From the NCBI RefSeq assembly GCF_000758525.1, contig NZ_CP009241.1, forward strand, positions 3,596,001 through 3,660,000: 64,000 bases of DNA. Reading direction: 5' to 3'. This DNA is from Paenibacillus sp. FSL H7-0357 (GTDB lineage: Bacteria > Bacillota > Bacilli > Paenibacillales > Paenibacillaceae). A program made the translations under genes and the position numbers. Shown here one piece after another: positions 11,134 to 27,200 of this stretch; position 1 is the stretch's first letter, and each line of letters starts with the position of its first letter. The notes under the pieces are model-generated. The model was not told the origin of the DNA and made no database searches. It was given only the letters and a program-made list of their open reading frames with translations.

Positions 11134-11163
11134 GTGATGTGGAACTTAGATAAGGTAGCTAGC

Positions 11164-11227
11164 AAAGAGCGGTAAAGGTCTGAATCCGGCAGGAAAAGCG
11201 GAATTTAGACCTTTGCTGCTCTTTTTT
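11164..11227 (+). terminator. Strong terminator after rnc
   Basis: A long stem pairs AAAGAGCGGTAAAGGTCT (11164-11181) with AGACCTTTGCTGCTCTTT (11207-11224) and is followed by T. It closes the fatty-acid/rnc unit, so the genes beyond are a separate transcript. Confidence 0.85.
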
Positions 11228-11328
11228 AAATATCATTAGATTGAACAAGCTTTTTAGGAATTTATGGATATCGTGTAAGAAGTGGATGAATTCACGTTGA
11301 AACGAAAGGATTTGCCCTTTTTTGTGGT

Positions 11329-11351
11329 TTGACAATCTTTATTGGGTAGGT
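11329..11351 (+). promoter_or_regulatory. Possible promoter of the DUF2294 gene
   Basis: A perfect TTGACA (11329-11334) is followed 17 nt later by a weak TTAACA -10. It lies about 60 bp before the DUF2294 start. The rest of the 11228-11411 gap is AT-rich with no other visible signal. Confidence 0.4.
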
Positions 11352-11411
11352 TTAACATGTAATTAATTAAATAAATTACCATAATAGGGATGTTAAGGCT
11401 GGGATGTAGTG

Positions 11412-11762
11412 ATGTCTGAGACTGTATTTGAATGCCAGGAGAAGATGCGAAGACTTGCAGTTAAGATTGTGAAGCATTATCGCGGCAAAGGTCCGGAGAA
11501 TGTAAAGGTTAGGATGGAGTATGAGTCCTTAATCATTATAGAGATTCGTGGAATTCTCTCCAGTTTATCTGAAATTTTGCTCAGCGAAGGTGCGGTACAT
11601 TTAGTTACAGAATACTGGAAAGTGCTGAAGCCTTATTTGGAGAGAGAGTTTATGGCAGAGATCGTAGAAACGCTTGGCAGCCCCTTTACATATACATGGA
11701 AGATCGAAGACCCGAATCCAGGGGATAGGGCAATTATTATTCAATTGAATAAATCGGTTTGA
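11412..11762 (+). CDS. DUF2294 (MpsC-like) domain protein
   Basis: This is a 116-residue soluble protein. Its pattern fits DUF2294, also called the MpsC domain: MRRLAVKIVKHYRGKGPENVKVR at the front, then LSSLSEILLSEGAVHLV and EIVETLGSPFTYTWKIEDPN. In staphylococci mpsC lies beside the MpsAB sodium/bicarbonate system, but no MpsA or MpsB is visible here. The stand-alone protein has no settled function. It sits between terminators just before fdhF, so it is a separate unit and the link to formate metabolism is only positional. Start ATG 11412 is chosen over the adjacent GTG 11409. Confidence 0.7.
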   Translation: MSETVFECQEKMRRLAVKIVKHYRGKGPENVKVRMEYESLIIIEIRGILSSLSEILLSEGAVHLVTEYWKVLKPYLEREFMAEIVETLGSPFTYTWKIEDPNPGDRAIIIQLNKSV

Positions 11763-11796
11763 TTAGAGAGAATGGACTTTTGCTCCTTAGCTTTTT

Positions 11797-11850
11797 AATA
11801 AGCCAGTACATTGTGTATTTCTGATTATACCTTGTATTGGCTTATTTTTG
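11797..11850 (+). terminator. Terminator between the DUF2294 gene and fdhF
   Basis: AATAAGCCAGTACA (11797-11810) pairs with TGTATTGGCTTATT (11833-11846), with one mismatch, and is followed by TTTTG. It isolates the formate/hydrogenase operon from the upstream gene. Confidence 0.75.
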
Positions 11851-11853
11851 TAT

Positions 11854-11862
11854 TGCTATAAT
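11854..11862 (+). promoter_or_regulatory. Extended -10 promoter of the fdhF operon
   Basis: TGCTATAAT (11854-11862) is a perfect extended -10, 34 nt before the fdhF ATG. The -35 candidate TTGTAT (11832-11837) is 19 nt away. No clear FNR box (TTGTGA-N4-TCACAA) was seen close by; the nearest match is the half-site AAAATCACAAGG at 11869-11880. Confidence 0.5.
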
Positions 11863-11895
11863 TGTGCAAAAAATCACAAGGAGTGGTGAGGAACT

Positions 11896-14040
11896 ATGGA
11901 GAATAAAGTGCTGACTGTATGTCCGTATTGCGGAAGTGGTTGTCAGATGAATTTACTTGTTGAGGAGGGGAAAATCGTAGGCGCTGAACCAGCGGATGGA
12001 AGAACGAATGAAGGGAATCTATGCCTTAAGGGTCATTATGGATGGGATTTTCTGAATGATCCGCAGATTCTTACCGCCCGTATCCGCAAGCCGATGATTC
12101 GTAAAGCAGGGACACTGGCAGAGGTATCCTGGGAAGAAGCCATTCAGTATACAGCCGAAAAACTAACAGCAATCAAGGAAAAGTATGGACCGGATGCAAT
12201 CATGGGAACCGGTTCAGCCCGTGGCCCGGGAAATGAAGCCAATTATGTCATGCAAAAATTTATGCGCGCTGTTATCGGAACCAATAATGTTGACCATTGC
12301 GCTAGGGTATGTCACGGGCCGTCCGTAGCTGGGCTTACCTATTCGCTAGGGGATGGCGCAATGTCCAATTCAATTCCTGAAATTGAGGACACGGATTTGT
12401 TGTTTATTTTTGGATACAATGCAGCGGTTACCCATCCCATTGTGGCGAGAAGAATTGTTAGTGCGAAGCAGAAGGGCGCCACCATCATCGTAACCGATCC
12501 CCGCAAGACGGAGTCGGCCCGCATTGCAGATACTTGGCTGCCCCTTAAAGGCGGCACGAACATGGCGCTTGTCAATGCCTTTGGTCATGTGCTAATTGCT
12601 GAGGAGTTATACGACAAGCAGTATGTTGAGAAATATGTGGAAGGTTTTGCGGAATATAAAGCCAGTGTGCAGAAATATACACCTGAATATGCGGAGAGCA
12701 TTACAGGTGTGCAAGCGGCGGAGATCCGCAAAGTAATGAGGCAATATGCGAGTGCGAACAAGGCGATGATCCTGTACGGTATGGGGGTATGTCAATTTGC
12801 CCAAGCCGTGGACGTTGTAAAGGGTCTGGCCTCACTGGCGCTTCTGACCGGTAACTTTGGCAGACCTGGCGTCGGGATTGGTCCGGTCCGCGGCCAAAAT
12901 AATGTACAGGGTTCCTGCGATATGGGGGCATTGCCAAATGTCTATCCGGGATACCAGTCTGTTACGGATGACAAGATCCGTAAAAAATTTGAAAAGGCCT
13001 GGGGAGTGGCTTTGCCTCGCAAAATCGGGTATCGGATTACCGAAATTCCTCATCTCGTTCTAAAGGAAGACAAGGTGAAGGCCTATTATATTTTTGGCGA
13101 AGATCCGGTGCAGAGCGATCCGAATGCCTCAGAAGTGAGAGAGACGCTGGATAAATTAGAATTTGTAATAGTCCAGGACATCTTCATGAACAAGACGGCC
13201 CTGCATGCCGATGTGATTTTGCCGGCCACCTCCTGGGGTGAGCATGACGGGGTCTACTCCTCAGCTGACCGTGGGTTCCAGCGGATCAGAAAGGCCATCG
13301 AGCCTCCCGGTGAAGTAAAGCCCGATTGGCAAATTATCAGCGAGCTTGCCACGGCGATGGGCTACCCGATGTCCTACCGGAACACGGAAGAAATATGGGA
13401 TGAAATGAGGGGGCTCTCCCCGTCGTTTGCCGGAGCCAGTTATCGGAAGATGGAAGAACAGGGCAGTGTTCAATGGCCTTGTCCGTCAGAAGATCATCCG
13501 GGCACACCGTATTTATATGAAGGGAACCGGTTTACCACTTCCAGCGGCAAAGGACAGCTGTTTGCCTGTGAATGGAGGGCACCGCTGGAGCAGCCGGATC
13601 AGGAATATCCGTTGTCCTTGTCCACAGTGCGTGAGGTAGGGCATTATTCGGTTCGGACGATGACCGGCAACTGCCGTGCCCTCAGTCAACTGTCGGATGA
13701 GCCTGGTTTCATCCAGATGAGCCCGGCGGACGGATCAAGCTTAGGGATTGAAGACGGCCAGCTTGTACATGTTGTATCCCGCCGAGGCAGAGTGTTAGCC
13801 CGGGCACAGATCAGCAACCGTGTCAAAACCGGAGCCACCTATATGACCTACCATTTCTGGATTGGGGCCTGCAATGAGCTGACGGGTGATTATCTGGACC
13901 CGGTCTCCAAAACTCCGGAATACAAGTATTGTGCGATCCGCATCGAGAAAATTGCAGATCAGCTGCGCGCGGAACAACAGGTTCAGCAGGAATATGAGGC
14001 GCTCAGAGCGCAGATGCATGTGGAGGCGAGACCGGTATGA
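11896..14040 (+). CDS. fdhF: Formate dehydrogenase H-type catalytic subunit (cysteine form)
   Basis: This 714-residue Mo/W-bisMGD enzyme interconverts formate and CO2. It is the same length as E. coli FDH-H and can be followed along it almost end to end. One [4Fe-4S] cluster is bound by CPYCGSGC (9-16) and Cys43. The metal ligand that is selenocysteine in E. coli is Cys139 in NVDHCARVCHGPSV, followed by the catalytic His140; the codon is TGC, so no Sec machinery is needed. Further motifs are GMGVCQF, VRGQNNVQG and MTGNCRALS. There is no NAD/FMN domain and no signal peptide, so it should be a cytoplasmic subunit handing electrons to the HycB-like partner, whose start overlaps its stop (ATGA). 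Confidence 0.95.
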   Translation: MENKVLTVCPYCGSGCQMNLLVEEGKIVGAEPADGRTNEGNLCLKGHYGWDFLNDPQILTARIRKPMIRKAGTLAEVSWEEAIQYTAEKLTAIKEKYGPDAIMGTGSARGPGNEANYVMQKFMRAVIGTNNVDHCARVCHGPSVAGLTYSLGDGAMSNSIPEIEDTDLLFIFGYNAAVTHPIVARRIVSAKQKGATIIVTDPRKTESARIADTWLPLKGGTNMALVNAFGHVLIAEELYDKQYVEKYVEGFAEYKASVQKYTPEYAESITGVQAAEIRKVMRQYASANKAMILYGMGVCQFAQAVDVVKGLASLALLTGNFGRPGVGIGPVRGQNNVQGSCDMGALPNVYPGYQSVTDDKIRKKFEKAWGVALPRKIGYRITEIPHLVLKEDKVKAYYIFGEDPVQSDPNASEVRETLDKLEFVIVQDIFMNKTALHADVILPATSWGEHDGVYSSADRGFQRIRKAIEPPGEVKPDWQIISELATAMGYPMSYRNTEEIWDEMRGLSPSFAGASYRKMEEQGSVQWPCPSEDHPGTPYLYEGNRFTTSSGKGQLFACEWRAPLEQPDQEYPLSLSTVREVGHYSVRTMTGNCRALSQLSDEPGFIQMSPADGSSLGIEDGQLVHVVSRRGRVLARAQISNRVKTGATYMTYHFWIGACNELTGDYLDPVSKTPEYKYCAIRIEKIADQLRAEQQVQQEYEALRAQMHVEARPV

Positions 14041-14627
14041 ATAATGTACAGCCGAATCCGTTTGTCATTGCCGAAGCGGGCAAATGCATAGGCTGCAAGG
14101 CGTGTGAACTGGCATGTTTCGCAGTTCATAACGATCACAATGGGGTTGGGGCGGCGGCGGGTACTGTTACGGTACCGGTTATTCCCCGCCTGCATGTCAT
14201 TCGAACAGAGAGCTTCACACTGCCGGTACAATGCCGCCAGTGCGAGAATGCGCCTTGTGCGGAAGCCTGTCCGGTTCAGGCGATCCGGCAGGAGGAGGGG
14301 ACGATAGTTATTCATGAAGAGAGCTGCATAGGCTGCAAAGGCTGTGCCATGGCCTGTCCGTTTGGTGCCGTCAGTCTGTATAAAGCATACAGCAACGGCA
14401 GGGTAGTCCCTCAGATTCAACTGAAGGAGCGGCAGCATAGCGCGATGGTACGTAGCGCCAAAGTGATCGCCTATAAATGTGATTTATGCCGGACCAGGGA
14501 CCATAAGGACGGAGCTATGGGAAACGTTCCGGCTTGTGTAGAGGTCTGTCCGGTAGAGGCACTGTCACTGGTTCATCCGGATACCAGTGTAGCCAGGTCA
14601 CGGACAGCAGCAGCTATGCGACTGTAA
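14037..14627 (+). CDS. HycB/HydN-like four-cluster ferredoxin subunit (first copy)
   Basis: This is a 196-residue electron-transfer protein. Cysteine sets CIGCKACELAC (17-27), CRQCENAPCAEACP, CIGCKGCAMACP and a last set starting CDLC and ending CVEVCP predict four [4Fe-4S] clusters, as in HycB, HydN and the small subunits of HDCR. ATGA overlap with fdhF implies coupled translation and a bound complex. A basic C-terminal tail (about 178-196, HPDTSVARSRTAAAMRL) follows the last cluster. Its likely job is to carry electrons between the formate dehydrogenase and the hydrogenase encoded next. Confidence 0.9.
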   Translation: MNNVQPNPFVIAEAGKCIGCKACELACFAVHNDHNGVGAAAGTVTVPVIPRLHVIRTESFTLPVQCRQCENAPCAEACPVQAIRQEEGTIVIHEESCIGCKGCAMACPFGAVSLYKAYSNGRVVPQIQLKERQHSAMVRSAKVIAYKCDLCRTRDHKDGAMGNVPACVEVCPVEALSLVHPDTSVARSRTAAAMRL

Positions 14628-14659
14628 TACCACTTCAATTCAGAAAAGAAGGTTGCACT

Positions 14660-16057
14660 ATGTCGTATAAGGATCCAATCATTCATATTGACGAACAATT
14701 ATGTACCGGCTGCAGACGTTGCGCGGCTGTATGTCCTGTGGATGCCATTATCGGCGAACCGGGCCACCCGCAGACTATTGATGCTCATCGCTGCGTCGTT
14801 TGTGGACAGTGTGTGCAGATTTGTACCGCTTATGCTGCGGACAACGAGTCGACGACAGCCTCACGAGCGGTAAAGTTACAGGAAAGAGGGCAGCTCCCCA
14901 ATGTGCGTGAGCCTTTGTTCGCTGCTTATTCGTCAGGGGATATCCAGAAGGTAAAAGCTGTTCTGGCTGATCCGAAACGGTTCAAGGTGGTGCAGTGCGC
15001 TCCTGCGATCCGAGTATCTCTGGCGGAGGAGTTTGGGCTGCCCTTCGGCACTTTAACCCCGGGGAAAATGGCGGCGGCGCTGAGACGGCTGAAGTTTGAC
15101 CGGATTTATGATACGAATTTTGCTGCGGACGTGACGATTATGGAAGAGGGCTCAGAGCTGATTGGCAGAGTGATGTCAGGAGAGCGGCTGCCAATGTTCA
15201 CCTCCTGCTGTCCGGCCTGGGTGAAGCATGCGGAGACGGCAGCACCGGAGCTGCTGGAGCATTTGTCCAGCTGCAAGTCCCCGATGCAAATGGGTGGAGC
15301 CTTGTTCAAGACCTACGGAGCGGAGCTGGATGGAATTGCACCTTCGGATATTTTCAGCGTCGCGGTTATGCCCTGTACCTGTAAAAAATTTGAATGCAGC
15401 AGAGAAGAAATGAGTGTGGATGGTTGCCGTGAAGTGGATCTCGTTATTACTACAAGGGAACTGGCCAGCTTAATCAAGGATCAAGGCATCGATTTCATTC
15501 ATCTTCCCGACGAGCCGTTTGATTCACCGCTGGGCAAATACTCTGGAGCGGGCTCGATCTTCGGCGTCACAGGCGGTGTGATGGAAGCTGCGATACGAAC
15601 AGGGTATGAACTGATCACCCATGAGCAGATTCCCAATCTGCAATTGGATTTTGTCAGGGGAGAGGAAGGCATCCGGACGGCAGAAGTTCAGATTGGCGAT
15701 TTGGAGCTCAAAGTGGCAGTAGTTGCAGGACTGAAATATGTGGATGCTGTTTTGGCAAAAGTTGCAGAGGGCACCTGCCCGTATCATTTCATTGAAGTGA
15801 TGGCTTGTCCCGAAGGCTGTGTCAGCGGCGGCGGACAGCCCAAGCTCCTGTTGGAAACGCAGCGGAAAATTGCTTATCAGGCCAGAAAGAGCGCTGTCTA
15901 CCGCCACGACTCTCATCAGAAGGTCCGCAAATCCCATGAGAATCCAGATATTATCAAATTATATAAGGACTTCTTAGGTGAACCGTTAGGCCATACTTCA
16001 CATCATTTGCTGCATACCAAATTTGTTGACAGAAGTCTTAAGGAGGAGATGTCATGA
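14660..16057 (+). CDS. [FeFe]-hydrogenase catalytic subunit (HDCR HydA2-like)
   Basis: This is a 465-residue soluble enzyme. Two ferredoxin-type [4Fe-4S] clusters come first: CTGCRRCAAVCP (15-26) and CVVCGQCVQIC (45-55). The H-cluster domain follows, with all three signatures: TSCCPAW (181-187, proton-relay Cys183), MPCTCKKFE (237-245) and MACPEGCVSGGGQP (381-394). Complete motifs rule out a sensory or Nar1-like relative. It lacks NADH/flavin subunits, so it should exchange electrons only with the flanking ferredoxin subunits, like the formate-linked (group A4) enzymes. Start ATG 14660 follows AAAAGAAGG; the in-frame opening from 14534 lies in the previous gene. MPCTCKK has an extra cysteine at 241. 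Confidence 0.93.
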   Translation: MSYKDPIIHIDEQLCTGCRRCAAVCPVDAIIGEPGHPQTIDAHRCVVCGQCVQICTAYAADNESTTASRAVKLQERGQLPNVREPLFAAYSSGDIQKVKAVLADPKRFKVVQCAPAIRVSLAEEFGLPFGTLTPGKMAAALRRLKFDRIYDTNFAADVTIMEEGSELIGRVMSGERLPMFTSCCPAWVKHAETAAPELLEHLSSCKSPMQMGGALFKTYGAELDGIAPSDIFSVAVMPCTCKKFECSREEMSVDGCREVDLVITTRELASLIKDQGIDFIHLPDEPFDSPLGKYSGAGSIFGVTGGVMEAAIRTGYELITHEQIPNLQLDFVRGEEGIRTAEVQIGDLELKVAVVAGLKYVDAVLAKVAEGTCPYHFIEVMACPEGCVSGGGQPKLLLETQRKIAYQARKSAVYRHDSHQKVRKSHENPDIIKLYKDFLGEPLGHTSHHLLHTKFVDRSLKEEMS

Positions 16058-16638
16058 ACCGGTTTGTCATTGCCGATCCCGATAAATGTATTGGTTGTCA
16101 TACTTGTGAAGTGGCCTGCGTAGTTGCACATGCCGGGAATAATATGTTCGTTCAGGAAGAGAGCGGGGCTGACTTCTATCCACGGTTGACAGTCGTCGAG
16201 ACCGATGAAGTTACCGCACCGGTGCAGTGCAGACATTGCGAGGATGCTCCTTGTGCCAATGTGTGCCCGAATGGCTCCATTACGAGCAAAGACAATAGCA
16301 TTTTCATCAATCAGGATAGCTGCATTGGTTGCAAGACCTGTATGCTGGTATGTCCTTATGGGGCGATTACAATGGTTCCGGCACATAAAGGTGGCCAAAA
16401 GCAACTTCAATCCGGGCTTCGTTCCAATACATCGGGTGCATGGAGCCGCAAGGAGAGAATTGTGGCGAACAAATGTGATTTGTGTGAAGACAGCGGCAAG
16501 GGCCCGGAATGTGTACGGGTATGCCCCACAAACGCTCTCCAATTCATCGTTCCAAGCCAGATTGAGGATTCCATTTCCCGGAAAAGACTGGCCAGTGCGC
16601 AGTCATTACAGCAGTTTAGCGGTTTTTCGCGCCTCTAA
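16054..16638 (+). CDS. HycB/HydN-like four-cluster ferredoxin subunit (second copy)
   Basis: This 194-residue relative of the protein at 14037 starts MNRFVIADPDKCIGCHTCEVAC. It has four cysteine sets: CIGCHTCEVAC, CRHCEDAPCANVCP, CIGCKTCMLVCP and CDLCEDSGKGPECVRVCP. ATGA overlap with the hydrogenase gene implies coupled synthesis. Two such small subunits beside one FDH and one hydrogenase is the HDCR stoichiometry. The tail (about 170-194, SRKRLASAQSLQQFSGFSRL) is basic and could form a helix; in HDCR, tails of the matching subunits build filaments, but that is only an analogy here. Confidence 0.9.
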   Translation: MNRFVIADPDKCIGCHTCEVACVVAHAGNNMFVQEESGADFYPRLTVVETDEVTAPVQCRHCEDAPCANVCPNGSITSKDNSIFINQDSCIGCKTCMLVCPYGAITMVPAHKGGQKQLQSGLRSNTSGAWSRKERIVANKCDLCEDSGKGPECVRVCPTNALQFIVPSQIEDSISRKRLASAQSLQQFSGFSRL

Positions 16639-16665
16639 TTCAGTCACTATAACGCAGAAAGCAAG

Positions 16666-17706
16666 GTGGAGCGTTTGTCCGATATCTTGGTCGATCACTT
16701 TGGTCGTTTACATAATTATGTGCGTATCTCCGTTACTGAGCGCTGCAACTTGGGCTGTCAGTATTGCAATCCGGGCAGAGTAGAAAAGGCTGTGGAGGGT
16801 AACCCGCTTACCTTTGACGAAATTGAACGGATCGTAAGGGTACTCGCTGAGATGGGGGTAACCAAGGTGCGACTTACCGGAGGAGAACCGTTGATGCGTC
16901 CGAACCTGGAAGAACTGGTGGCCAGGTTAAGGGCCATCTCCGGGATTGAACGTGTCGGTCTGACCACGAATGGACTGCTGCTCGCCCCCAAAGTGCAGAA
17001 GCTGCGTGATGCCGGGCTTACAGATCTCAACGTCAGCCTGGATTCTCTAATTCCAGAACGCTATTCCAGAATCACTGGGGGCGGCGATGTCAGCAAGGTG
17101 TTGCATGCTTTAGCAGCTGGTTTTAAGGCTGGCTTCGAGGTACTGAAGCTGAATATGGTCTTGATGAAAGGTGTAAACGATGATGAAATTGAATCCTTTC
17201 TGCAGCTGACTCAGAAATATCCGCTGCACGTCCGCTTTATTGAATATATGCCCATGGGTCATGATATCAACGGATGGGAAGCGGGATATATGCCTTTGGA
17301 TGGAATACTGGAGCGGTGTGCCAAGGCTGGTTTTAGTCTTGAAGCAGATCCGGACCCGGGTAGGACAACTGATGAGCCGACTAGGAAAGCAGCAGATTCC
17401 GGCCCGGCCCGTTATTTTCGCATCCAAGGTGCGGCAGGGCAATTTGGCTTGATTCATCCGGTCAGCCAGCATTTCTGTAATTCATGTAACCGGCTGCGTA
17501 TTACAGCAAACGGTCACGTTAAGCCGTGCCTCTTCTGGAACGAAGAGCTGTATATCCGGCCTTACATCGCTCAATCAGAGCTGCTGAAGCAATTGTTTCT
17601 GCGCGCCCTGGAAGCCAAACCTGGCCAGCATATAATGATGGACCAACCGGGCACCAAGCCACCCTTGAAGGCCACAATGCGTCTGATGTCGCAAATTGGG
17701 GGGTGA
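16666..17706 (+). CDS. moaA: GTP 3',8-cyclase MoaA (radical SAM)
   Basis: This 346-residue enzyme performs the first step of molybdopterin synthesis. The radical-SAM cluster motif is CNLGCQYC (Cys27, 31, 34). The second cluster uses cysteines in HFCNSCNRLRI and VKPCLF, and the C-terminus ends in the conserved Gly-Gly (MSQIGG), which MoaA needs for activity. So this is a true MoaA rather than a loose homologue. Its place in the operon fits the cofactor need of the formate dehydrogenase. The start is GTG 16666; TTG 16675 is an alternative. It ends 7 nt before the next start. Confidence 0.88.
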   Translation: MERLSDILVDHFGRLHNYVRISVTERCNLGCQYCNPGRVEKAVEGNPLTFDEIERIVRVLAEMGVTKVRLTGGEPLMRPNLEELVARLRAISGIERVGLTTNGLLLAPKVQKLRDAGLTDLNVSLDSLIPERYSRITGGGDVSKVLHALAAGFKAGFEVLKLNMVLMKGVNDDEIESFLQLTQKYPLHVRFIEYMPMGHDINGWEAGYMPLDGILERCAKAGFSLEADPDPGRTTDEPTRKAADSGPARYFRIQGAAGQFGLIHPVSQHFCNSCNRLRITANGHVKPCLFWNEELYIRPYIAQSELLKQLFLRALEAKPGQHIMMDQPGTKPPLKATMRLMSQIGG

Positions 17707-17713
17707 AAAACAA

Positions 17714-19135
17714 TTGAACGACGATCCTATGTTTCGGGTGGAATCGGATGCTTTAGGGAGTGAAGCGGTTCCCAGTGGGGCTTATTATGGAATTCACGCG
17801 GTAAGGGCGCGGGATAATTTTGCGGTCAGCGGCCGGCCGGTGAATCCGCGGATCACGCGGGCCATTGTAATGGTGAAGAAAGCGGCAGCCAAAGTAAATG
17901 GCAGGCAAGGGGGTATTTCCGAGCAGGCGGCTGCGGGTATTCTATCTGCTTGCGATGAAATTCTACAGGGCCAGATGGATAAACACTTTATTGTGGATGC
18001 GTATCAGGGCGGAGCGGGAACGAGTACGAACATGAACGTTAACGAGGTGATAGCCAATCTGGCCATCGAGAAACTTGGTGGACATAAGGGGGATTACCGG
18101 CTGATCCATCCGATAGATCATGTGAATCTCTATCAATCTACCAATGACGTGTATCCCACTGCCATGCGAATTGCGATGATTCCGCTGCTTCGCTCGCTTA
18201 GTGAAGAGTTTGCCTCTCTTCAGGAGGCATTGCAGGAGAAGGAGCGGGAATACGCCGATGTGTTAAGGTTAGGACGGACTCAACTCATGGACGCACTGCC
18301 CATCATGGCCGGACAAAGCTTTGGTGCTTATGCCAAAGCGGTTGCACGGGACAGGTGGCGGCTGTACAAGGCGGAGGAACGGCTGCGGGAGATTAACCTT
18401 GGAGGAACGGCAGTGGGCACAGGAATGAATGCCCCCCTTGCTTATATTTATGCCATTGCAGAAGAGCTGCGGGAACTAACCGGAATGGGGCTGTGCCGCA
18501 GCGATTTTCCGATGGATGGCACCCAGAATATGGATGTGTTTGTGGAAGTTTCAGGTTTGCTCAAAGCCGCTGCAGTGAACTTGCTGAAGATATCCGGCGA
18601 TTTCCGGCTGCTTAATGCCGGGCCCTCCGGCGGAATTGCAGAATACATCCTGCCGCCTATGCAGGTAGGTTCTTCGATCCTGCCCGGTAAAATGAACCCG
18701 GTCATCGCAGAGATGGCCGGGTCAGTCGCTATGAAGGTGATCTCCAATGATACAGCAGTCACTTTGGCGGCGGCCAGCGGACAGCTGGAGCTGAATGCCT
18801 TTGCCCCTTTAATCGCAGAATCTCTGCTTGAATCTCTTGAAATTCTTACTGAGGCTGTACGGCTCTTTCATGAGCGATGCGTGCGTGGGTTGAAAGTCGA
18901 TACTGCACATTGTCTCGAGCATTTGGAACGCTCCGGCGTCATGGCTGCCGCAGCGGTGACGTATCTGGGTTATGACGCCGCAGCTGAACTGGCTACGTCT
19001 GCGGCGGCCTCGGGCCGGCCGTTAAAAGAGATTTTGCTGGAACAAGGACTGATGACGAAAAAGCAGATCGATGCCATTCTGCATCCGCTGGAGGTTACCA
19101 AACCAGGCATCCCTGGAAGATCAAGAGATTTATAA
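17714..19135 (+). CDS. aspA: Aspartate ammonia-lyase family protein
   Basis: This 473-residue member of the fumarase/aspartase superfamily has TSTNMNVNEVIANLA, STNDVYPTAMR and the signature loop as GSSILPGKMNP (usual form GSSxMPxKxNP). Start TTG 17714 lies behind the GGGGGGTGA at the end of moaA. Aspartase genes recur in hydE/hydF/hydG operons of other bacteria, where ammonium release is thought to support making the H-cluster dithiomethylamine bridge. It is probably aspartase, but the substrate cannot be fixed from sequence alone. Confidence 0.82.
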   Translation: MNDDPMFRVESDALGSEAVPSGAYYGIHAVRARDNFAVSGRPVNPRITRAIVMVKKAAAKVNGRQGGISEQAAAGILSACDEILQGQMDKHFIVDAYQGGAGTSTNMNVNEVIANLAIEKLGGHKGDYRLIHPIDHVNLYQSTNDVYPTAMRIAMIPLLRSLSEEFASLQEALQEKEREYADVLRLGRTQLMDALPIMAGQSFGAYAKAVARDRWRLYKAEERLREINLGGTAVGTGMNAPLAYIYAIAEELRELTGMGLCRSDFPMDGTQNMDVFVEVSGLLKAAAVNLLKISGDFRLLNAGPSGGIAEYILPPMQVGSSILPGKMNPVIAEMAGSVAMKVISNDTAVTLAAASGQLELNAFAPLIAESLLESLEILTEAVRLFHERCVRGLKVDTAHCLEHLERSGVMAAAAVTYLGYDAAAELATSAAASGRPLKEILLEQGLMTKKQIDAILHPLEVTKPGIPGRSRDL

Positions 19136-19165
19136 AGGTTCTAAGATAACGAAGGAGCGCATGTT

Positions 19166-20434
19166 ATGAGCTTACATGATACCCCGCGTGGAGAACGAAT
19201 GCACATTGCAGTCTTTGGACGGCGTAATGCCGGGAAATCCAGTGTGATTAACGCTTTAGGCGGTCAGGAGACGTCCATTGTTTCTCCGGTAAGCGGGACA
19301 ACGACAGATCCGGTTTATCAACCGATGGAGCTGCTGCCGGTGGGACCGGTAGTGCTCATTGATACCGCCGGATTGGATGATAGCGGAAGTTTGGGCGAAC
19401 AGCGGATTCGCAAAACAAATCAGGTTCTGAGCAAAACCGATCTGGCGTTGCTGGTGATAGACGCTGTCCAAGGAGTAGGCGAATTTGAGCACAATCTTTT
19501 ACAGAACCTGTCTGTCAAGAAGATTCCGGTCATTCTACTATTGAACAAAGTAGACTTGCTCGAAGAACATGGTAACGGTGAGGAACACACTGTAGTGGCG
19601 GCAAAGGCAAAGGTAGAAGACCAGCTTCATTTGAAGCCAATGCTATTCAGTGCTCTCAGGAATACTGGGATCACGGATCTAAAAGCTGCAATCGTCCGGG
19701 AGCTCCCGAGGGACGAAGACCGGTTCCGGCTAGTGGGAGACCTGCTGAATCCCGGAGACTTGGCTGTTCTGGTAGTGCCGATCGATAAGGCAGCACCCAA
19801 AGGAAGACTGATTCTGCCCCAGCAGCAGACCATTCGTGACATCATGGAATGTGATGCAGTTGCTGTTGTCACCAAGGAACAGGAGCTTGGACACACGCTC
19901 AAGACGCTGGGGCGCAAGCCAAATGTGGTCATCACGGATTCACAGGCATTTCTTAAAGTTCAGGCAGATACCCCAAAGGATATCCCGCTCACGTCCTTTT
20001 CCATATTGTTTGCCAGGTACAAGGGGGATCTTCCTCAGCTTGTACGCGGGGTTCGCGCTATTGGTCGTTTGCAGGACGGAGACCGGGTGCTCATTGCGGA
20101 AGCCTGCACGCATCACCGGCAATCCGATGATATTGCTTCCGTGAAGATTCCCCGCTGGCTGCGGGAACTGACAGGCAGGCAGCTTCAAATTGAACATGCC
20201 GCAGGCAGTGATTTCCCTGCAGGACTCGGCGGTTATTCACTGATCATTCACTGCGGAGCGTGTATGTTGAACCGCAGGGCGATGCTGGGGAGGCTTGAAG
20301 AGGCGGAACATGCGGGTGTTCCAATTGTGAATTATGGTGTATTTATTGCCTACGTGCAGGGGGTGTTCCCAAGAGCCATCGAAATGTTTCCGTCTGCAAT
20401 GCTGGCCTGGGAGGAGGGGGCATATAACCATTAA
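19166..20434 (+). CDS. hydF: [FeFe]-hydrogenase maturation GTPase HydF
   Basis: This 422-residue scaffold protein holds the 2Fe precursor of the H-cluster and delivers it to the hydrogenase. The N-terminal GTPase domain has Walker A GRRNAGKSS (14-22), DTAGLDD and NKVD. The C-terminal cluster-binding domain has the HydF pattern CTHH (about 312) with HCGAC (about 362). ATG 19166 follows GAAGGAG. It is the last gene of the plus-strand operon and is followed by a terminator shared with hydG. Confidence 0.95.
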   Translation: MSLHDTPRGERMHIAVFGRRNAGKSSVINALGGQETSIVSPVSGTTTDPVYQPMELLPVGPVVLIDTAGLDDSGSLGEQRIRKTNQVLSKTDLALLVIDAVQGVGEFEHNLLQNLSVKKIPVILLLNKVDLLEEHGNGEEHTVVAAKAKVEDQLHLKPMLFSALRNTGITDLKAAIVRELPRDEDRFRLVGDLLNPGDLAVLVVPIDKAAPKGRLILPQQQTIRDIMECDAVAVVTKEQELGHTLKTLGRKPNVVITDSQAFLKVQADTPKDIPLTSFSILFARYKGDLPQLVRGVRAIGRLQDGDRVLIAEACTHHRQSDDIASVKIPRWLRELTGRQLQIEHAAGSDFPAGLGGYSLIIHCGACMLNRRAMLGRLEEAEHAGVPIVNYGVFIAYVQGVFPRAIEMFPSAMLAWEEGAYNH

Positions 20435-20449
20435 TGCGTATATTAAAGC

Positions 20450-20498
20450 GGGGGTGTTCCAAAAGCCATCTGAATGGCTGCTGGAACACCCCCTTTTT
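20450..20498. terminator. Bidirectional terminator between hydF and hydG
   Basis: GGGGGTGTTCCA (20450-20461) pairs perfectly with TGGAACACCCCC (20482-20493), with an inner GCCAT/ATGGC stem and a T-run on the plus side. It closes the plus-strand operon and faces the end of the opposite one. Confidence 0.9.
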
Positions 20499-20522
20499 GT
20501 GACAGCGTACATTGGGTGCGGC

Positions 20523-21944
20523 CTAAAACCGTAGATCTCGTTCGCCGTTATGGATACGCTGAAGTTGCTTTAGGGTCGCTTTTTTGACCGATTCCTTGGG
20601 AATGCGCTCCAGATTGTCATGAATCGTCTGCTCTCCAATGGCCCGCATCTCCTCATCGGCGTAATCCAGCAGGTATTCCTGAAACGTCATCAGGGAGTTC
20701 GGCTGACAGACATTATGAATTTGGCCGGATTTGGCCAGCTGCATGAAACGGTCTCCCGTGCGGCCTTCCCGGTAACAGGCGGTGCAGTAACTCGGCACAT
20801 AGCCGTCCTGGCAGAGATTTTTGATGATTTCCATAGGGGAGCGGTGATCGCCTACCATGAATTGCGGTTTGTCATCTTTATCTTTGTTCACACTGTATGC
20901 GCCAACACCTGTGGCGGAGCCTGCGCTGATCTGGGAAATGCCCAGTTTGATTATCTGATCACGAAATTCAGCGTCTTCGCGTGTAGAGAGTATCATTCCT
21001 GTATAGGGAACGGCTATTCGCAGAACGGCGACGATTTTGGCGAAATCCGGATCGCTGACCAAGTAAGGGTAACTGTCCAGGTTCACATTCTCCGCTTCGC
21101 GCAGGCGGGGGACGGAAATCGTATGCGGTCCGCAGCCATAGGCCTGTTCCAGATGCTCGGCATGCTTTAGCATGGCTATCGTTTCATATTTATAATCATA
21201 GAGCCCATACAGAACACCAATACCAACATCCTCGATACCGGCTTTCATGGCCCTGTCCATGGCGGTCGTATGCCAATCATAATCACTTTTGGGTCCTTGC
21301 GGATGGTATTGCTTGTAACTAGGTCTATGATAAGTCTCCTGAAATAAAATATAAGTTCCAATTCCCGCCTCAGCCAGCTTGATGTAGTCATCGAATGTGG
21401 TTGCAGCGATATTGACATTGATCCGGCGGATACTGCCATTGTCCAGCTTCGTATCGTAAATGGTCTTTATGCAGTCGAGAATATAATCGATGGAACAATT
21501 GCGGGGATCCTCACCCGCTTCCAGCACAAGCCGTTTGTGTCCCAGAGACTGCAGAACGTTAACTTCCTGGGCAATTTCATCTGAGGTTAAGCGGCTGCGT
21601 GTGAATTCAGAATTGGAATGTTTGTAACCGCAGTACACGCAATTATTGACACAGTAGTTGCTGACATAGAGCGGTGCGAACAATACAATCCGGTTGCCGT
21701 AGATCCGTTCCTTGATAACTCTGGATACCTGATAAATCTCATTCAGTGTTTCCTGATCTTCCACATTTAAGAGGACAGCTGCTTCTTGTGAGGTCAGTCC
21801 TTTACATTGTCTGGCTTTCTCAAGAATTGCGGACACCTTGGCCCGATCCGATCCGGCATTTTCTCCAAATCGCAGCGCTTCTTTGATCTCTTCGTCCTGA
21901 ATGAAATCCGCCGGACGACTTTCATTTACTCGGCTCACGAACAT
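20523..21944 (-). CDS. hydG: [FeFe]-hydrogenase maturase HydG (radical SAM tyrosine lyase)
   Basis: This 473-residue enzyme splits tyrosine to make the CO and CN ligands of the H-cluster. The radical-SAM motif is CVNNCVYC (Cys98, 102, 105). The C-terminal auxiliary cluster motif has Cys-X2-Cys-X22-Cys (CTACYREGRTGDRF onward), which separates HydG from ThiH. I set the start at ATG 21944, giving MFVSRVNESRPADFI. The frame is open back to ATG 22052, which would add 36 cysteine-rich residues and overlap hydE, without a ribosome site. Confidence 0.93.
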   Translation of the reverse strand: MFVSRVNESRPADFIQDEEIKEALRFGENAGSDRAKVSAILEKARQCKGLTSQEAAVLLNVEDQETLNEIYQVSRVIKERIYGNRIVLFAPLYVSNYCVNNCVYCGYKHSNSEFTRSRLTSDEIAQEVNVLQSLGHKRLVLEAGEDPRNCSIDYILDCIKTIYDTKLDNGSIRRINVNIAATTFDDYIKLAEAGIGTYILFQETYHRPSYKQYHPQGPKSDYDWHTTAMDRAMKAGIEDVGIGVLYGLYDYKYETIAMLKHAEHLEQAYGCGPHTISVPRLREAENVNLDSYPYLVSDPDFAKIVAVLRIAVPYTGMILSTREDAEFRDQIIKLGISQISAGSATGVGAYSVNKDKDDKPQFMVGDHRSPMEIIKNLCQDGYVPSYCTACYREGRTGDRFMQLAKSGQIHNVCQPNSLMTFQEYLLDYADEEMRAIGEQTIHDNLERIPKESVKKATLKQLQRIHNGERDLRF

Positions 21945-22038
21945 CCACTTCTTTCTGGGTTCATTATTGGATTGACAAGCAGACTTGGACTCTTCCAACT
22001 CGATTGCGAGATGACAACAGGCTGATTCGGTGGCTTCC

Positions 22039-23115
22039 TTACAATGGAACATGCTGTGCAGAAGAACGGGATAGATAATTCAGACTATCTCCCCGGCCCA
22101 TATCCACATGGAATCCGGCAGCTTCAATCCGCTGTTCCAGACAGAATCTGCATTGGGCGGATTCGTCACCCAGACAGATTTTGTTATTGTAGAGCGTATA
22201 TTGGGCTCGTACAGTCAAAGGAGAGAGATTAGGCATGACCACATTGGCGCCTGCTTGCAACGCCAGCTCCCGCCCGTTCGGGTGAGCGGTTCCCATGGCT
22301 GTTGTAGCAGGGATTAGGGCATTCGGCACGAAGAGCCGGGCAAGAGCAATCATATCCAGTGTATCTATTACTGTTCCGGCCGGCTCGTCCTTTAAGGGTG
22401 TGGCCTGATGCGGCAAAAAAGGGCCAATGCCGATCATATCCGGTTCAAGCGCCTTAAGATACAGCAGGTCTTCAGCCAAATCCCCGGGCGTTTGGCCTGG
22501 TAAACCAACCATAAAGCCTGCACCCACCTGATAGCCGAGGGACTTGAGAGCCTCCAACCGATTCCGGCGGCTGTCAAAGGTCATGGTCGGGTGCAGGGCT
22601 TGGTACAGCTTACGGGAGGCTGTCTCATGACGCAGCAAGTAACGGTCAGCTCCGGCCGCGAGCAGTGTAGCGTAAGTCTCATCATCCCGTTCACCAATCG
22701 ACAGTGTTACCGCGGTATCCGGATAGAGTGTTTTAATGCGCGTAATGAGCTCGGCCAGCTTCTCAGTGGTGTACCAGTCGTCTTCTCCGCTCTGCAGAAC
22801 AAAGGTACGATAGCCCAGCTCATACCCTTCCCGGCAGCATTCCAAGATTTCTTCAGGTTGGAGCCGATAGCGGCTGACTGTCTTATTGCCGGAGCGTATG
22901 CCGCAATACAGGCAGTTCTGTTTGCAAATATTGGAAAATTCGATCAGCCCACGCAAAAATACACGGTCGCCATAACGTTCCATTCTTTTCAGATGGGCCA
23001 GGTGATGAAGCCGCTTTTTTAGATTTTGGTCCGGGTTCCTCAGTACGGTAATGATCTCTTGAGCTTCCAGTGATTCTTCTTCATATAATCGATCCAGCAA
23101 TTGTTCCGTTGACAT
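22039..23115 (-). CDS. hydE: [FeFe]-hydrogenase maturase HydE (radical SAM)
   Basis: This 358-residue radical-SAM enzyme assembles the 2Fe subcluster with HydG and HydF. The first cluster motif is CKQNCLYC (Cys64, 68, 71), after the FLRGLIEFSN block typical of HydE and biotin-synthase relatives. TTAMGTAHPNGRE and CRFCLEQRIEAAGF are C-terminal features. ATG 23115 directly follows a GTG in frame. It is the middle gene of the minus-strand group fdhD-hydE-hydG. Confidence 0.93.
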   Translation of the reverse strand: MSTEQLLDRLYEEESLEAQEIITVLRNPDQNLKKRLHHLAHLKRMERYGDRVFLRGLIEFSNICKQNCLYCGIRSGNKTVSRYRLQPEEILECCREGYELGYRTFVLQSGEDDWYTTEKLAELITRIKTLYPDTAVTLSIGERDDETYATLLAAGADRYLLRHETASRKLYQALHPTMTFDSRRNRLEALKSLGYQVGAGFMVGLPGQTPGDLAEDLLYLKALEPDMIGIGPFLPHQATPLKDEPAGTVIDTLDMIALARLFVPNALIPATTAMGTAHPNGRELALQAGANVVMPNLSPLTVRAQYTLYNNKICLGDESAQCRFCLEQRIEAAGFHVDMGRGDSLNYLSRSSAQHVPL

Positions 23116-23236
23116 CACTCCCTATCCTGGAGGGGATTAATCATATAACCAAAAAATAACAATTGCGAAGCTCTAGAAAAAATTGTAACAAAAGTAAAAA
23201 TAGAGAACAGTGAGTTTTGTGCTTGAATTTTGAGGT

Positions 23237-24061
23237 TCAAGGAGGGGGGAAAGCGGGACAACCGGAGATACGATCCGGACGGGTATACACATTACATGAA
23301 TTCTGACGAATGAAACCAACGGTGGTGATTCCCAACTGTTCCGCCAGCTCAAGTGCTAGTCCGGTGGGGGCAGATTTGGACAAAATCATTTCACAGCCTA
23401 TTTTGGCTACTTTCAATAAGATTTCAGAAGAGATCCGTCCGCTGAAAACAACAATTTTGTCATTGAGTTTCAAATGTTGCTTCAGGCAGTAGCCGTAAAT
23501 TTTGTCCAGTGCATTATGACGCCCAATGTCGCTGCGGGCCAGCAGCACCCCGCCGGCATCGCAAATTGCAGCAGAATGGACGCCACCGGTGCGGTGGAAC
23601 AGCTCTGATCCGGTTTGCACTTCCTCCATTAAGCGGAAACAATCGTCGAAAGAAAGTGACACATGTACCCCGTCCGCAATTTTGGCCGTTCTGGCATCAT
23701 TAATGTAGACGAAGCCATGCCGGCTAGACCCGCAGCAGGAAGTTACATATCGCTTGGCGAACAGCTGACGGTGTAATGGGCTTAAGTGGTCTATAGTTAC
23801 GTGGACGAAACCTTCTTCTTCCTTACTCCAAATCGCCTTGATATCCTGGAACCCTCTAATGATTCCTTCGGATGCCAAATAACCGATAACCATGTCCTCG
23901 ATATATTCAGGCGTGCATACCAGAGTGACGAATTCATCACCGTTTATTTTGATTGTGACCGGATGCTCCGTAACGATAAGATCTTCCTCCATCGTGATAT
24001 GGCCACTGCGGTAACGTATAATTTCCCCATGCCGCTCGGATCCGAGTTCCAATGCAATCAC
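23237..24061 (-). CDS. fdhD: Formate dehydrogenase accessory sulfurtransferase FdhD
   Basis: This 274-residue protein transfers sulfur to the bis-MGD cofactor of formate dehydrogenase, which is needed for activity. The key cysteines are at 109-110 in VTSCCGSS. Other family blocks are ICDAGGVLLARSDIGRHNALDKI and VVFSGRISSEI. The start is GTG 24061, with TTG 24052 as an alternative better spaced from AGGGTGA. A 121-bp gap precedes hydE. With moaA in the facing operon, it ties this module to molybdo-enzyme assembly. Confidence 0.93.
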   Translation of the reverse strand: MIALELGSERHGEIIRYRSGHITMEEDLIVTEHPVTIKINGDEFVTLVCTPEYIEDMVIGYLASEGIIRGFQDIKAIWSKEEEGFVHVTIDHLSPLHRQLFAKRYVTSCCGSSRHGFVYINDARTAKIADGVHVSLSFDDCFRLMEEVQTGSELFHRTGGVHSAAICDAGGVLLARSDIGRHNALDKIYGYCLKQHLKLNDKIVVFSGRISSEILLKVAKIGCEMILSKSAPTGLALELAEQLGITTVGFIRQNSCNVYTRPDRISGCPAFPPP

Positions 24062-24229
24062 CCTTTTTCGTTAGAAATTGAATATCTCAACATTTCCTTA
24101 AATGATAAATAATACCATCTAAAAACACACCCTTACTACATCACTTTTCCTAAAAAGTGTCAATTTAATATCTCACATACAGCCTTTGCGTTCTTCATGA
24201 ATCAGAGCTATTTTAGGAGTTGAACGCTA

Positions 24230-24238
24230 TGGTATAAT
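24230..24238 (+). promoter_or_regulatory. Extended -10 promoter of smc
   Basis: TGGTATAAT (24230-24238) is a perfect extended -10, 24 nt before the smc ATG. With rnc 13 kb away, smc needs this promoter of its own. Confidence 0.6.
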
Positions 24239-24261
24239 GGGTCAGAGGTGATAGGCGAGTT

Positions 24262-27200
24262 ATGTTTTTGAAACGGATTGAATTAGCGGGCTTTAAATCA
24301 TTTGCCGACAAAACGGAAATGGAATTTGTACGCGGCATAACGGCCGTTGTTGGCCCGAACGGCAGCGGCAAAAGCAATATTTCCGACGGCATCCGCTGGG
24401 TGCTCGGTGAACAGAGCGCCAAATCGCTGCGCGGCGGCAAGATGGAGGATATTATCTTTGCCGGAAGTGATGCACGCAAAGCCGTGAATTACGGTGAGGT
24501 GTCGCTCACTCTGGACAATGAGGATCATGTCCTGCCGCTCGATTTCAGCGAAGTTACAGTAACGCGCCGTGTGCACCGCAGCGGTGAAAGTGAATATTTA
24601 ATCAATAAGCAGGCCTGCAGGCTGAAGGATATCACAGAGCTGTTTATGGATACCGGCATCGGACGCGAGGCTTATTCGATTATCGGACAAGGCCGGATTG
24701 AAGAAATTCTGAGTACGCGTTCCGAGGATCGCCGCGGTATTTTTGAAGAGGCCTCAGGTATTGTTAAGTATAAATCACGCAAAAAAGATGCGGGCCGCAA
24801 GCTGGACGAAACCGAGCAGAACCTGCTCCGGATTCATGATTTGATCAGCGAGCTGGAGGATCAGGTAGGCCCGCTCAAGGATCAATCGGAGAAGGCCATC
24901 CGCTATAAGGAGCTGCGCGAGCAGCTGAAACAGCTGGAAATCTCCGTGTACGTGCACCAGATAGAAGGCATTCATACCTCCTGGAAGGAAGGCAATGCCC
25001 GGCTTGAAACGCTGCAGGTCGAACAGCTTGAGCTGTCCACTGTCGTTTCGGCCCATGACGCCAAGCTGGAGAGCGGGCGTTCTGAGCTTCGAGCACTGGA
25101 GGCGCAGGTTGAACAACTGCAGGAACAGCTGCTTCGTTACAGTGAAGCGAATGAGAAAAGTGAAGGCTACGGCGAAGTGCTGAAGGAGCGCAAGCGCAAC
25201 CTGGAGAACAACCGCGAGCAATTGATGCTTACACTGGGCTCGGTAGGAGAGCGCTCAGAGGGTAGACAGCGCGAGCTGGCAGAGCTGGAGCATAAGCTGC
25301 AGCAGTCAAGACAGGCTCTGGAGGAGCTGCGCGCTCAACTGGCAGATGAGGAAGTCCGGCTGGAAGGAGTGGCTGGCGGGATTAGCCAAAGCAAGGAAGA
25401 GAAGCTAAAAAGCGCCTTGCTTGAGCTAATGAACCTGATGGCCCAGGCCCGCAACGAAATTCGTTACGCGGATCAGCAGAAGGAAGCCTTGGAGCGGCGG
25501 ATGAGCCGCAGCGTTGAGGAAAGCGGCAAATGGGTCGCGCGGCTCGCGGAGCTGTCTGCTTCGCAGAAGGGTCTGAAGGATACCATTGCCACACTCGGCA
25601 AAGAGATTGGAACGCTGCGCGGCGCCTACATCACGGAGAGCGAGCAGACCAGCAAACGCCAGAAGCTGCTGGAGGAAACGCAGAGCGGACTCCGTAAATG
25701 GGAACAGAAGCGCGAAGCCCAGGTTTCCCGGCATGAGACGATGAAGGAAATGCAGGATGATTTTGACGGATTTATGCTTGGAGTCAAAGAGGTCCTTAAG
25801 GGAGCGCGCAAAGGCCAGCTAAGCGGTGTGCACGGTGCAGTAGCGGAGCTGATCTCCGTGCCGGAACGGCTGGAGCTGGCTGTGGAAACAGCGCTAGGCG
25901 CATCGCTTCAGCATGTGGTTATGGATAATGAAGCCGTCTCCCGTCAAGCGATTACCTTTCTGAAGCAGCGCCAGCTGGGACGGGCTACATTTCTGCCGCT
26001 GGATGTCATCCGGCCCCGGCAGATTACCGGCAGCGACCGCAGTATGGTGGAAGGTGCGGAAGGATTTGTCGGCATCGGCAGTGATCTGGTCGGTTATGAG
26101 GACAAATATGCAAGCATTGTCGGCAGCTTGCTCGGAAATGTCGTTATTGCAGAAAGTCTGGAACAGGCTAACCGGATCGCCGCCAAATGCCAATACCGCT
26201 ACCGTGTAGTTACGCTGGAAGGCGATGTTGTCAATGCCGGCGGTTCGATGACCGGGGGCAGTCAGCATAAGAAGAACAACAGCCTGCTGAGCCGTAAACG
26301 CCAGCTCGACCAGCTGTTCGGTGAAATTGAAGAAAGCGAACGTCAGATTGCCAAGCTGAAGCAAGGCATTGCCAAACTTCGCGAGGAGCAGGAGAACGCT
26401 GCGAAGAAGCTGGAGCAGCTGCGCCATGACGGTGACGAGAAGCGTCTGGAGGAGCAACGGGTCTCCGGTGATTTGAAGCAGCTGGAACAGGAACTGCGCC
26501 ATGTTCAGGAGCAGGTGGATGGTGCGGGTGCCGAACGCAGCGGCTTTGAGAGTGAAGTCCGCAGTCTGGACGAGAGCCGCAATCAGGCGGTTGCCGAGCT
26601 TGCAAGGCTGGAGAAAGAAGAGAAGGATTCCCATGAGGCCATCCGCAATGCCGAATCGGAGCGTAAGGCGAGTGAAACGGCTAAGGAAGAGCTGCAGGGT
26701 AAGCTGACCGGCATGAAGGTAAGTGAGGGTAAGCTGGATCAGGAGATTTTCTCACTGGAGGAACAGCTTAGACGCATGAGGCAAGACGCCGGATCGCAGG
26801 ATAAAGAGCTGCGCCAGAGCCGCAGTCTGCTTATGACCATCGAGAAGGATCTCGAAGAGAATTCACGCGAAGCGGTCAAACAGAAGGAAGATCTGAACAA
26901 CTACCGCCTGAAGAAAGAAGAGACGGCGGGTACGCTTGATTTGGCGCGCGCTGAACGGGCGGCGTTAACCCGCAAGCTGGAGCTTGCCGAAGGTGAAACC
27001 AAAGACCAGCGGCAGGCTTTAAAGGCCGTGGAGGACAAGCTGCGTTCCACAGAGGTAGCTGTAGGACGGCTTGATGTTGAGCTGGACAACATTCTCCGTA
27101 AACTGAGCGATGATTACGAGCTGAGTTATGAACTGGCGAAGCAGCGTTATCCGGTTCCCGAGGATGTGCCGGCCGCACAGCTGGAGGTGCAGCGTCTAAA

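Follow-up and report, generated by a model that had tools for sequence, protein, structure and literature searches.

A 64,000-nucleotide stretch of Paenibacillus sp. FSL H7-0357 (GCF_000758525.1, contig NZ_CP009241.1, positions 3,596,001 to 3,660,000; hereafter the window) carries a 13-kb gene island with genes for the four subunit types of the hydrogen-dependent CO2 reductase (HDCR): a formate dehydrogenase, an [FeFe]-hydrogenase, and two polyferredoxins. From sequence and genome context, we put the probability that these genes encode an HDCR-type complex run as a formate hydrogenlyase at roughly 0.87. The enzyme finding holds up and had largely been foreseen in published work: HDCR-like clusters have been reported in many Paenibacillus and a role in formate disposal proposed for them (Schuchmann et al. 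2018, PMC6288185; here and below, statements attributed to papers refer to the available portions of those papers). Added here are the island as a transferred unit, a changed tail of the polyferredoxin HycB4, and an RNA element, for none of which a description was found in a limited literature check; the conserved RNA element is apparently undescribed.

Core Genes and Hydrogenase Phylogeny

The four core genes span positions 11896-16638 of the window:

11896..14040, + strand: fdhF, molybdopterin formate dehydrogenase catalytic subunit (714 residues; Cys139 at the metal)
14037..14627, + strand: first four-cluster polyferredoxin, HycB4-like (196 residues; 221.8 bits to HycB4, 7qv7_B, versus 122.1 to HycB3)
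14660..16057, + strand: hydA, HDCR-type (A4-like) [FeFe]-hydrogenase (465 residues from ATG; 690.9 bits to 7qv7_D; placed by tree)
16054..16638, + strand: second four-cluster polyferredoxin, taken as HycB3-like (194 residues; 175.3 bits to HycB4, 160.7 to HycB3)

All four are intact as open reading frames; the mechanically called frame of hydA opens further upstream, at TTG. Four-base overlaps join fdhF to the first polyferredoxin gene (14037-14040) and hydA to the second (16054-16057). The original prediction, made from the DNA letters and translated reading frames, had named these four genes and both overlaps, and coordinates and family matches confirm them. FdhF scores 924 bits against Fdh-alpha (TIGR01591, cut-off 666), and HydA scores 435 bits against FeFe_hydrog_A (TIGR02512, cut-off 406) and matches Pfam Fe_hyd_lg_C and Fe_hyd_SSU, scores too high for chance matches to matter. 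Each polyferredoxin has 16 cysteines and matches HycB, as befits proteins with four [4Fe-4S] sites each, and the four HDCR subunit types are thus encoded together in one cluster.

Comparison with solved structures supports the predicted likeness to the HDCR of acetogens. The best solved chain for HydA is HydA2 of the Thermoanaerobacter kivui HDCR (7qv7_D, 691 bits; the runner-up reaches 394), and that for both polyferredoxins is HycB4 of the HDCR. The second polyferredoxin has the higher overall score to HycB4, but its alignment reaches further into the tail with HycB3; by gene position and C-terminal tail, it is taken as HycB3-like. The ligand motif of the formate dehydrogenase places Cys at position 139, and Cys is the ligand in 13/13 named Paenibacillus loci showing the motif (of 14 loci, the contig of the last being cut), which bears out the expectation that selenium is not needed; a selenocysteine requirement in Paenibacillus was accordingly rejected. 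Among the 21 non-Paenibacillus loci of this type with the motif, 16 have a TGA copy at the ligand codon and five have Cys only.

In a maximum-likelihood tree of 62 rows, a 100/100 branch separates the window HydA, T. kivui HydA2, and 36 relatives from 24 other group A hydrogenases, so that the check by phylogeny suggested with the original prediction places the hydrogenase among formate-linked enzymes. The 36 relatives had been labelled in advance by search rank (at least 57% identity), the other 24 rows were the first by name, after a length filter, from 43 lower-ranking loci fetched, and the tree program warns of long branches, including two rows on the window's side (L044 and L050). The placement is by this tree rather than by HydDB, the A4 name of the T. 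kivui hydrogenase being taken from PMC12905484. Within the same tree, the Paenibacillus HydA proteins form a single clade (15 rows, 100/99). An fdhF homologue is present in the fetched DNA of 34/36 high-ranking loci versus 1/43 lower-ranking ones, and Paenibacillus and several Clostridia share the gene order fdhF-hycB-hydA-hycB. A search of 60 other genomes of the genus found this hydrogenase type in 12 (76-98% identity) and another [FeFe] type in 17 (48-52%), these counts including one genome with both. An electron-bifurcating hydrogenase was rejected on family scans and the tree; the HytB-D subunits, which would go with a complex such as the bifurcating Fdh/Hyt of Clostridium autoethanogenum, were not found among the island genes.

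Physiological Role

The genome of the strain encodes one [FeFe]-hydrogenase catalytic domain (a single PF02906 match), one pyruvate formate-lyase (970 bits to TIGR01255 over the matched part, the cut-off of 994 applying to the full-length protein), and four matches to formate/nitrite channels (FNT). It yields no match to the [NiFe]-hydrogenase large subunit (PF00374) or, in one family search, to CdhC/ACS (PF03598), and with the latter unmatched, Wood-Ljungdahl use of the complex, its role in acetogens, finds no support there. Disposal of formate as H2 and CO2 is therefore the best supported role, as had been predicted for a facultative anaerobe, a way of life that the host probably follows. 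Formate-dependent H2 evolution is on record for P. polymyxa extracts (Grau and Wilson 1962, as cited in PMC6288185).

The proposed complex would be soluble and would consist of a Cys-liganded FdhF with a Mo or W cofactor, two polyferredoxins acting as an electron wire, and an A4-type HydA. Formate supplied by pyruvate formate-lyase would be oxidized to CO2 by FdhF, and the electrons would probably travel along the two HycB subunits to HydA and leave as H2, a route of formate removal involving neither NAD nor direct proton pumping. The H-cluster would be built by HydE, HydF, and HydG, while FdhD and MoaA would serve the Mo/W cofactor. Complex formation, reaction direction, and electron path, like the regulation considered below, are what we infer from the genes.

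Several points weigh against this account. Among solved chains, FdhF scores higher with Escherichia coli FdhH (1004 bits) than with T. kivui FdhF (737 bits, in two pieces), and the formate dehydrogenase is thus nearer to the E. coli enzyme. The absence of acetyl-CoA synthase comes from a single family search, with a family that we take to cover the bacterial enzyme. The genome also holds two molybdopterin oxidoreductases besides that of the window, making three in all, one NarG-like and one scoring 218 bits to Fdh-alpha (cut-off 666; for both, the matched stretch alone was scored), and formate electrons could go elsewhere through them. No gene for an NAD-binding or membrane subunit occurs among the eleven genes scanned at 11409-24061, in keeping with the predicted NAD-free complex; its description as membrane-free is not established, given that the T. 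kivui structure paper reportedly bears the title "Membrane-anchored HDCR nanowires". Finally, known HDCRs are reversible, and sequence cannot fix the direction (PMC6288185, PMC12905484).

This reversibility is compatible with a complex that chiefly reduces CO2, turning H2 and CO2 into formate to feed one-carbon biosynthesis or to dispose of electrons, a role that we consider improbable here. The clade relatives of the window HydA include the acetogens T. kivui, Clostridium ragsdalei, and Sporomusa as well as Desulfosporosinus, which favors such a role, but the missing CdhC/ACS match and the presence of a formate-making pyruvate formate-lyase argue against it, as does the published proposal for the genus (PMC6288185). 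Least credible is separate action of the co-encoded FdhF and hydrogenase, HydA with ferredoxin and FdhF with another acceptor: co-localization by itself is no proof of a complex and known HDCRs also accept reduced ferredoxin (PMC6288185), but the gene order is kept from Paenibacillus to several Clostridia, the subunits match those of the solved complex (7qv7), and the Clostridium beijerinckii homologues co-purify (PMC12905484).

An HDCR-type formate hydrogenlyase, the reading preferred here, would resemble several known systems in part. With the T. kivui HDCR (PDB 7qv7), the window shares the four subunit types, the HydA clade, the Cys ligand, and the lack of a diaphorase gene in the cluster (PMC6119302). 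It differs in gene order, both hycB genes of T. kivui lying between fdhF and hydA2 (PMC6119302), in its FdhH-like formate dehydrogenase and shorter HycB4 tail, and in having hydEFG, moaA, and aspA in the island and no acetogenic pathway match. The previously reported Paenibacillus clusters are of the same kind, genus, and proposed role, whereas island boundaries, transfer, and an RNA element are unmentioned in the available portions of that report (PMC6288185). The C. beijerinckii complex CbFdh/Hyd, purified in 2026, is a soluble tetramer with a Cys ligand and an A4 hydrogenase and works in both directions, formate cleavage and CO2 reduction, at similar rates; its genes lie in two predicted operons, and the portions of the paper available do not mention an attenuator (PMC12905484). 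The E. coli formate hydrogenlyase catalyzes the same net reaction in what is likely the same role and has the FdhH counterpart noted above, whereas the strain lacks a PF00374 match and no membrane subunit gene was found in the island.

HDCR reportedly outpaces the best chemical catalysts of CO2 hydrogenation by a wide margin (PMC6288185), and there is demand for it in hydrogen storage. With its Cys ligand and its own adjoining maturation genes, the Paenibacillus version is a natural candidate for heterologous expression.

The Island, Its Transfer, and the Polyferredoxin Tails

Besides the core genes, the island and its flanks comprise the following:

11138..24294, no strand: the island as a unit (blastn, one alignment to Paenibacillus faecis, 13,160 columns, 96.4% identity)
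10429-11133: rnc, upstream flank (NCBIfam name)
11409..11762, + strand: DUF2294/MpsC family gene, first of the island (117 residues; PF10057 30.3 bits, cut-off 23)
16666..17706, + strand: moaA, GTP 3',8-cyclase for the molybdenum cofactor (TIGR02666 345.6 bits, cut-off 284)
17696..19135, + strand: aspA-like aspartate ammonia-lyase (NF008909 612 bits, cut-off 510)
19166..20434, + strand: hydF, H-cluster maturation GTPase (TIGR03918 558.5 bits, cut-off 326)
20523..22052, - strand: hydG, H-cluster radical SAM maturase (TIGR03955 691.5 bits, cut-off 312)
22039..23118, - strand: hydE, H-cluster radical SAM maturase (TIGR03956 489 bits, cut-off 255)
23237..24061, - strand: fdhD, formate dehydrogenase sulfurtransferase (TIGR00129 225.8 bits, cut-off 141)
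24262-27831: smc, downstream flank, into whose start the island reaches (NCBIfam name)

The alignment that delimits the island pairs window positions 11138-24294 with P. faecis L022:6478-19622, where the copy is flanked by parC- and lysR-like genes (assigned by visual inspection of the translations) and closes with some 30 bases of smc coding sequence resembling that of the window. The P. faecis SMC and RNase III proteins are only 73% and 81% identical to those of the window, and its own rnc and smc matches lie 203 nt apart. The 96.4% DNA identity at another site and the scrap of smc, set against an SMC of 73% identity, indicate that the whole set from DUF2294 to fdhD moved as a single 13-kb island. 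This is most simply read as recent acquisition by P. faecis from a lineage carrying the island at rnc-smc. In P. albidus, the island and its near flanks are about 88% identical to the window and occupy the same location, and rnc lies upstream of the locus in 8/13 genomes of the genus with this type (the strain itself included), the fetched stretches of the remaining five containing neither rnc nor fabF. Transfer of the whole package between two species with SMC proteins 73% identical suggests that the capability for formate hydrogenlyase may be a mobile trait in the genus.

Adjoining H-cluster maturases set Paenibacillus apart from the other loci of this type examined, as judged from up to 10 kb on each side (some contigs being shorter). 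Both hydE and hydG occur in 12/14 named Paenibacillus loci, the contigs of the other two being short, and hydF occurs in 10/14; among 22 non-Paenibacillus loci, hydE was found in none, hydG in one, and hydF in none. The cofactor genes moaA and fdhD accompany 6 and 7 of the 14 Paenibacillus loci, respectively, and DUF2294 is present in 13/14 and in 5/22 of the others. An aspartate ammonia-lyase gene (17696-19135 in the window) stands amid the maturation set in 12/14 Paenibacillus loci and 0/22 others; the window protein scores 507 bits to TIGR00839 aspA, under the cut-off of 681.

By sequence comparison, Paenibacillus has a shorter and altered version of the HycB4 tail that is linked to filaments in T. 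kivui. After the last Cys-Pro, it measures 24-30 residues in 14 Paenibacillus proteins and 29-36 (one 91) in 22 others; an ad hoc tail motif occurs in 0/14 and 14/22, respectively, and by eye the tails of P. terrae-like and P. macerans-like copies are unlike the clostridial one. The HycB3-side tail looks retained, with a strict ad hoc motif in 3/14 Paenibacillus and 11/19 other proteins and a looser motif, picked after the strict one, in 14/14 and 16/19. An AlphaFold model of HycB4 with 16 rows (pLDDT 48) was too poor to use, and the filament question therefore rests on the tails, from which we infer that filaments of the Paenibacillus complex would be weaker or absent.

RNA Element and DUF2294 Family

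Three candidate regulatory features accompany the DUF2294 gene and fdhF:

11329..11358, + strand: sigma-70-like promoter (TTGACA, 18 nt, TAACAT) ahead of DUF2294 (2 sites found versus 1.9 expected in shuffles; not significant alone)
11752..11849, + strand: candidate attenuator RNA (fold z, covariation, covariance-model matches)
11862..11879, + strand: Rex/Fnr-like palindrome TTGTGCAAAAAATCACAA, 34 bases before fdhF

The RNA element consists of a hairpin (11756-11804 including its base) and a terminator hairpin in which 11800-11810 pairs with 11833-11843, followed by a T-rich run. Since AAGCC is common to the hairpin base and the 5' arm of the terminator, the two are mutually exclusive. The whole element folds with a z of -5.8 (0/200 shuffles as good) and the hairpin alone (first 55 bases) with a z of -2.7 (3/200). 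A covariance model trained on 16 Paenibacillus copies detects the element beyond its training set in C. thailandense, C. lacusfryxellense, C. magnum, and two Desulfosporosinus, with E-values of 8.5e-12 to 7.7e-9 that are rough owing to short calibration; a Sarcina locus (L050) matches weakly at 26 bits. In 27 copies, 9/23 pairs are changed at both positions, with a covariation score of 0.271 versus at most 0.135 in slid controls, although this alignment was fitted to the structure and many copies are near relatives (the set was cut at E of at most 1e-7, antisense matches, being the same hairpins reversed, were dropped, and the Sarcina copy is not among the sources). A MAFFT alignment of 16 copies, which was not fitted, gives 6/17 doubly changed pairs and 0.270 versus at most 0.146 for the hairpin and its base. 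Covariation is concentrated in the inner hairpin, with a lesser share in the terminator, and the letters of the hairpin base are almost invariant from Paenibacillus to Clostridium.

Among 398 genomes of the phylum, searched with strict filters, four match the RNA model at E of at most 0.01. The strong matches are the strain's own genome and a contig taken to be that of Desulfosporosinus acididurans (L037); of the weak ones, one (33 bits) lies directly after a DUF2294 gene and the other (31 bits) resembles a bare terminator. Rfam 15 gives no match at an E of at most 1 for 11100-24300 and none at gathering for the window, and its 11 matches in 19 related loci include none overlapping the element. 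One C. magnum locus (L036) carries, at 21140-21259, a molybdenum riboswitch (RF01055) behind its second fdhF cluster.

Two explanations of the element compete, neither of which reaches even odds. The first, rated somewhat below even, sees the terminator of DUF2294 with an adjacent hairpin and no switching, fdhF having its own promoter and being controlled at the palindrome. It accords with the best fold of the whole element, in which inner hairpin and terminator form next to each other, and with the presence of a like palindrome after the terminator, 31-37 bases before fdhF, in 16/23 distinct Paenibacillus loci (the window included) and 0/18 others. This palindrome has two mismatches to the Rex consensus (PMC6391272), although sites as loose show no excess in the window; the genome has one Rex-type gene, and Rex binds upstream of hydG and [FeFe]-hydrogenase genes in Caldicellulosiruptor bescii (PMC6391272). 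Rex or Fnr control of the island is thus plausible. Other observations sit poorly with a plain terminator, which needs neither a covarying inner hairpin nor an almost invariant base: the window hairpin folded alone extends through its AAGCC base, the promoter scan has no site at the palindrome, and in C. magnum the element (L036:15945-16032) stands as a leader about 360 bases before a second HDCR-like fdhF in a locus without a DUF2294 match.

The other explanation, which we rate as less likely than not, is that the island is under an undescribed transcription-attenuation switch, common to Paenibacillus, Clostridium, and Desulfosporosinus, in which an antiterminator hairpin and the terminator alternate in response to CO2, bicarbonate, or formate, perhaps through binding of the DUF2294 protein to the hairpin, as a local form of a wider CO2-linked regulator. 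The layout recalls the protein-dependent antiterminators of the LicT/SacY kind, in which a hairpin shares sequence with the 5' arm of a terminator upstream of the genes under control. Besides the side-by-side fold, several results count against switching. Covariation is absent from the five pairs whose formation would preclude the terminator (four are invariant and one varies on one side), and the switch is therefore rated slightly lower. Three other copies of the hairpin folded alone give z values of -0.7 to -1.8 (the L030 piece being cut short), and in one shuffle control 28/500 shuffles reach the count of doubly changed pairs, while in that of the 16-copy MAFFT alignment 123/500 reach the number of pair types. 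Were the element a switch, it would offer a handle on the regulation of such complexes and on the function of the uncharacterized DUF2294/MpsC family.

DUF2294 occurs in 118/398 Bacillota genomes. Hairpins overlapping a downstream terminator were found at 13/29 DUF2294 loci, or 13/17 of those with a terminator, but this loose criterion is also met by 129/355 background sites, which suits an element without switching. The test is only moderate evidence of a link to DUF2294: L138 was omitted for its short contig, and two of the 13 loci (L123 and L125) are near copies. An earlier version, comparing the hairpins with shuffled upstream sequence, gave z from +0.8 to -4.7. Genes for biotin carboxylase, AIR carboxylase, PurK, phosphoenolpyruvate carboxylase, or a Na+-bicarbonate transporter (Sbt_1), as identified by Pfam, adjoin 10/27 DUF2294 loci; the neighbors were chosen by eye, one or two per locus and with no background control, and the 27 loci come from 30 fetched for the best-scoring matches rather than from a random draw on the 118 genomes. 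In Staphylococcus aureus, a weak terminator separates mpsC from mpsAB, the bicarbonate transporter genes upstream of it, and deleting mpsC leaves growth unaffected; outside staphylococci, mpsC is not collocated with mpsAB (PMC6689103), which speaks against a firm link to the MpsAB transporter. The family may, as a hypothesis, comprise CO2-linked regulators. An AlphaFold model of DUF2294, computed with no alignment, has a pLDDT of 70.5 and no PDB match below an E of 0.001. At two loci (L145 and L147), the DUF2294 gene and its hairpin/terminator are followed, directly or one gene on, by a gene for DUF4914, a family of unknown function.

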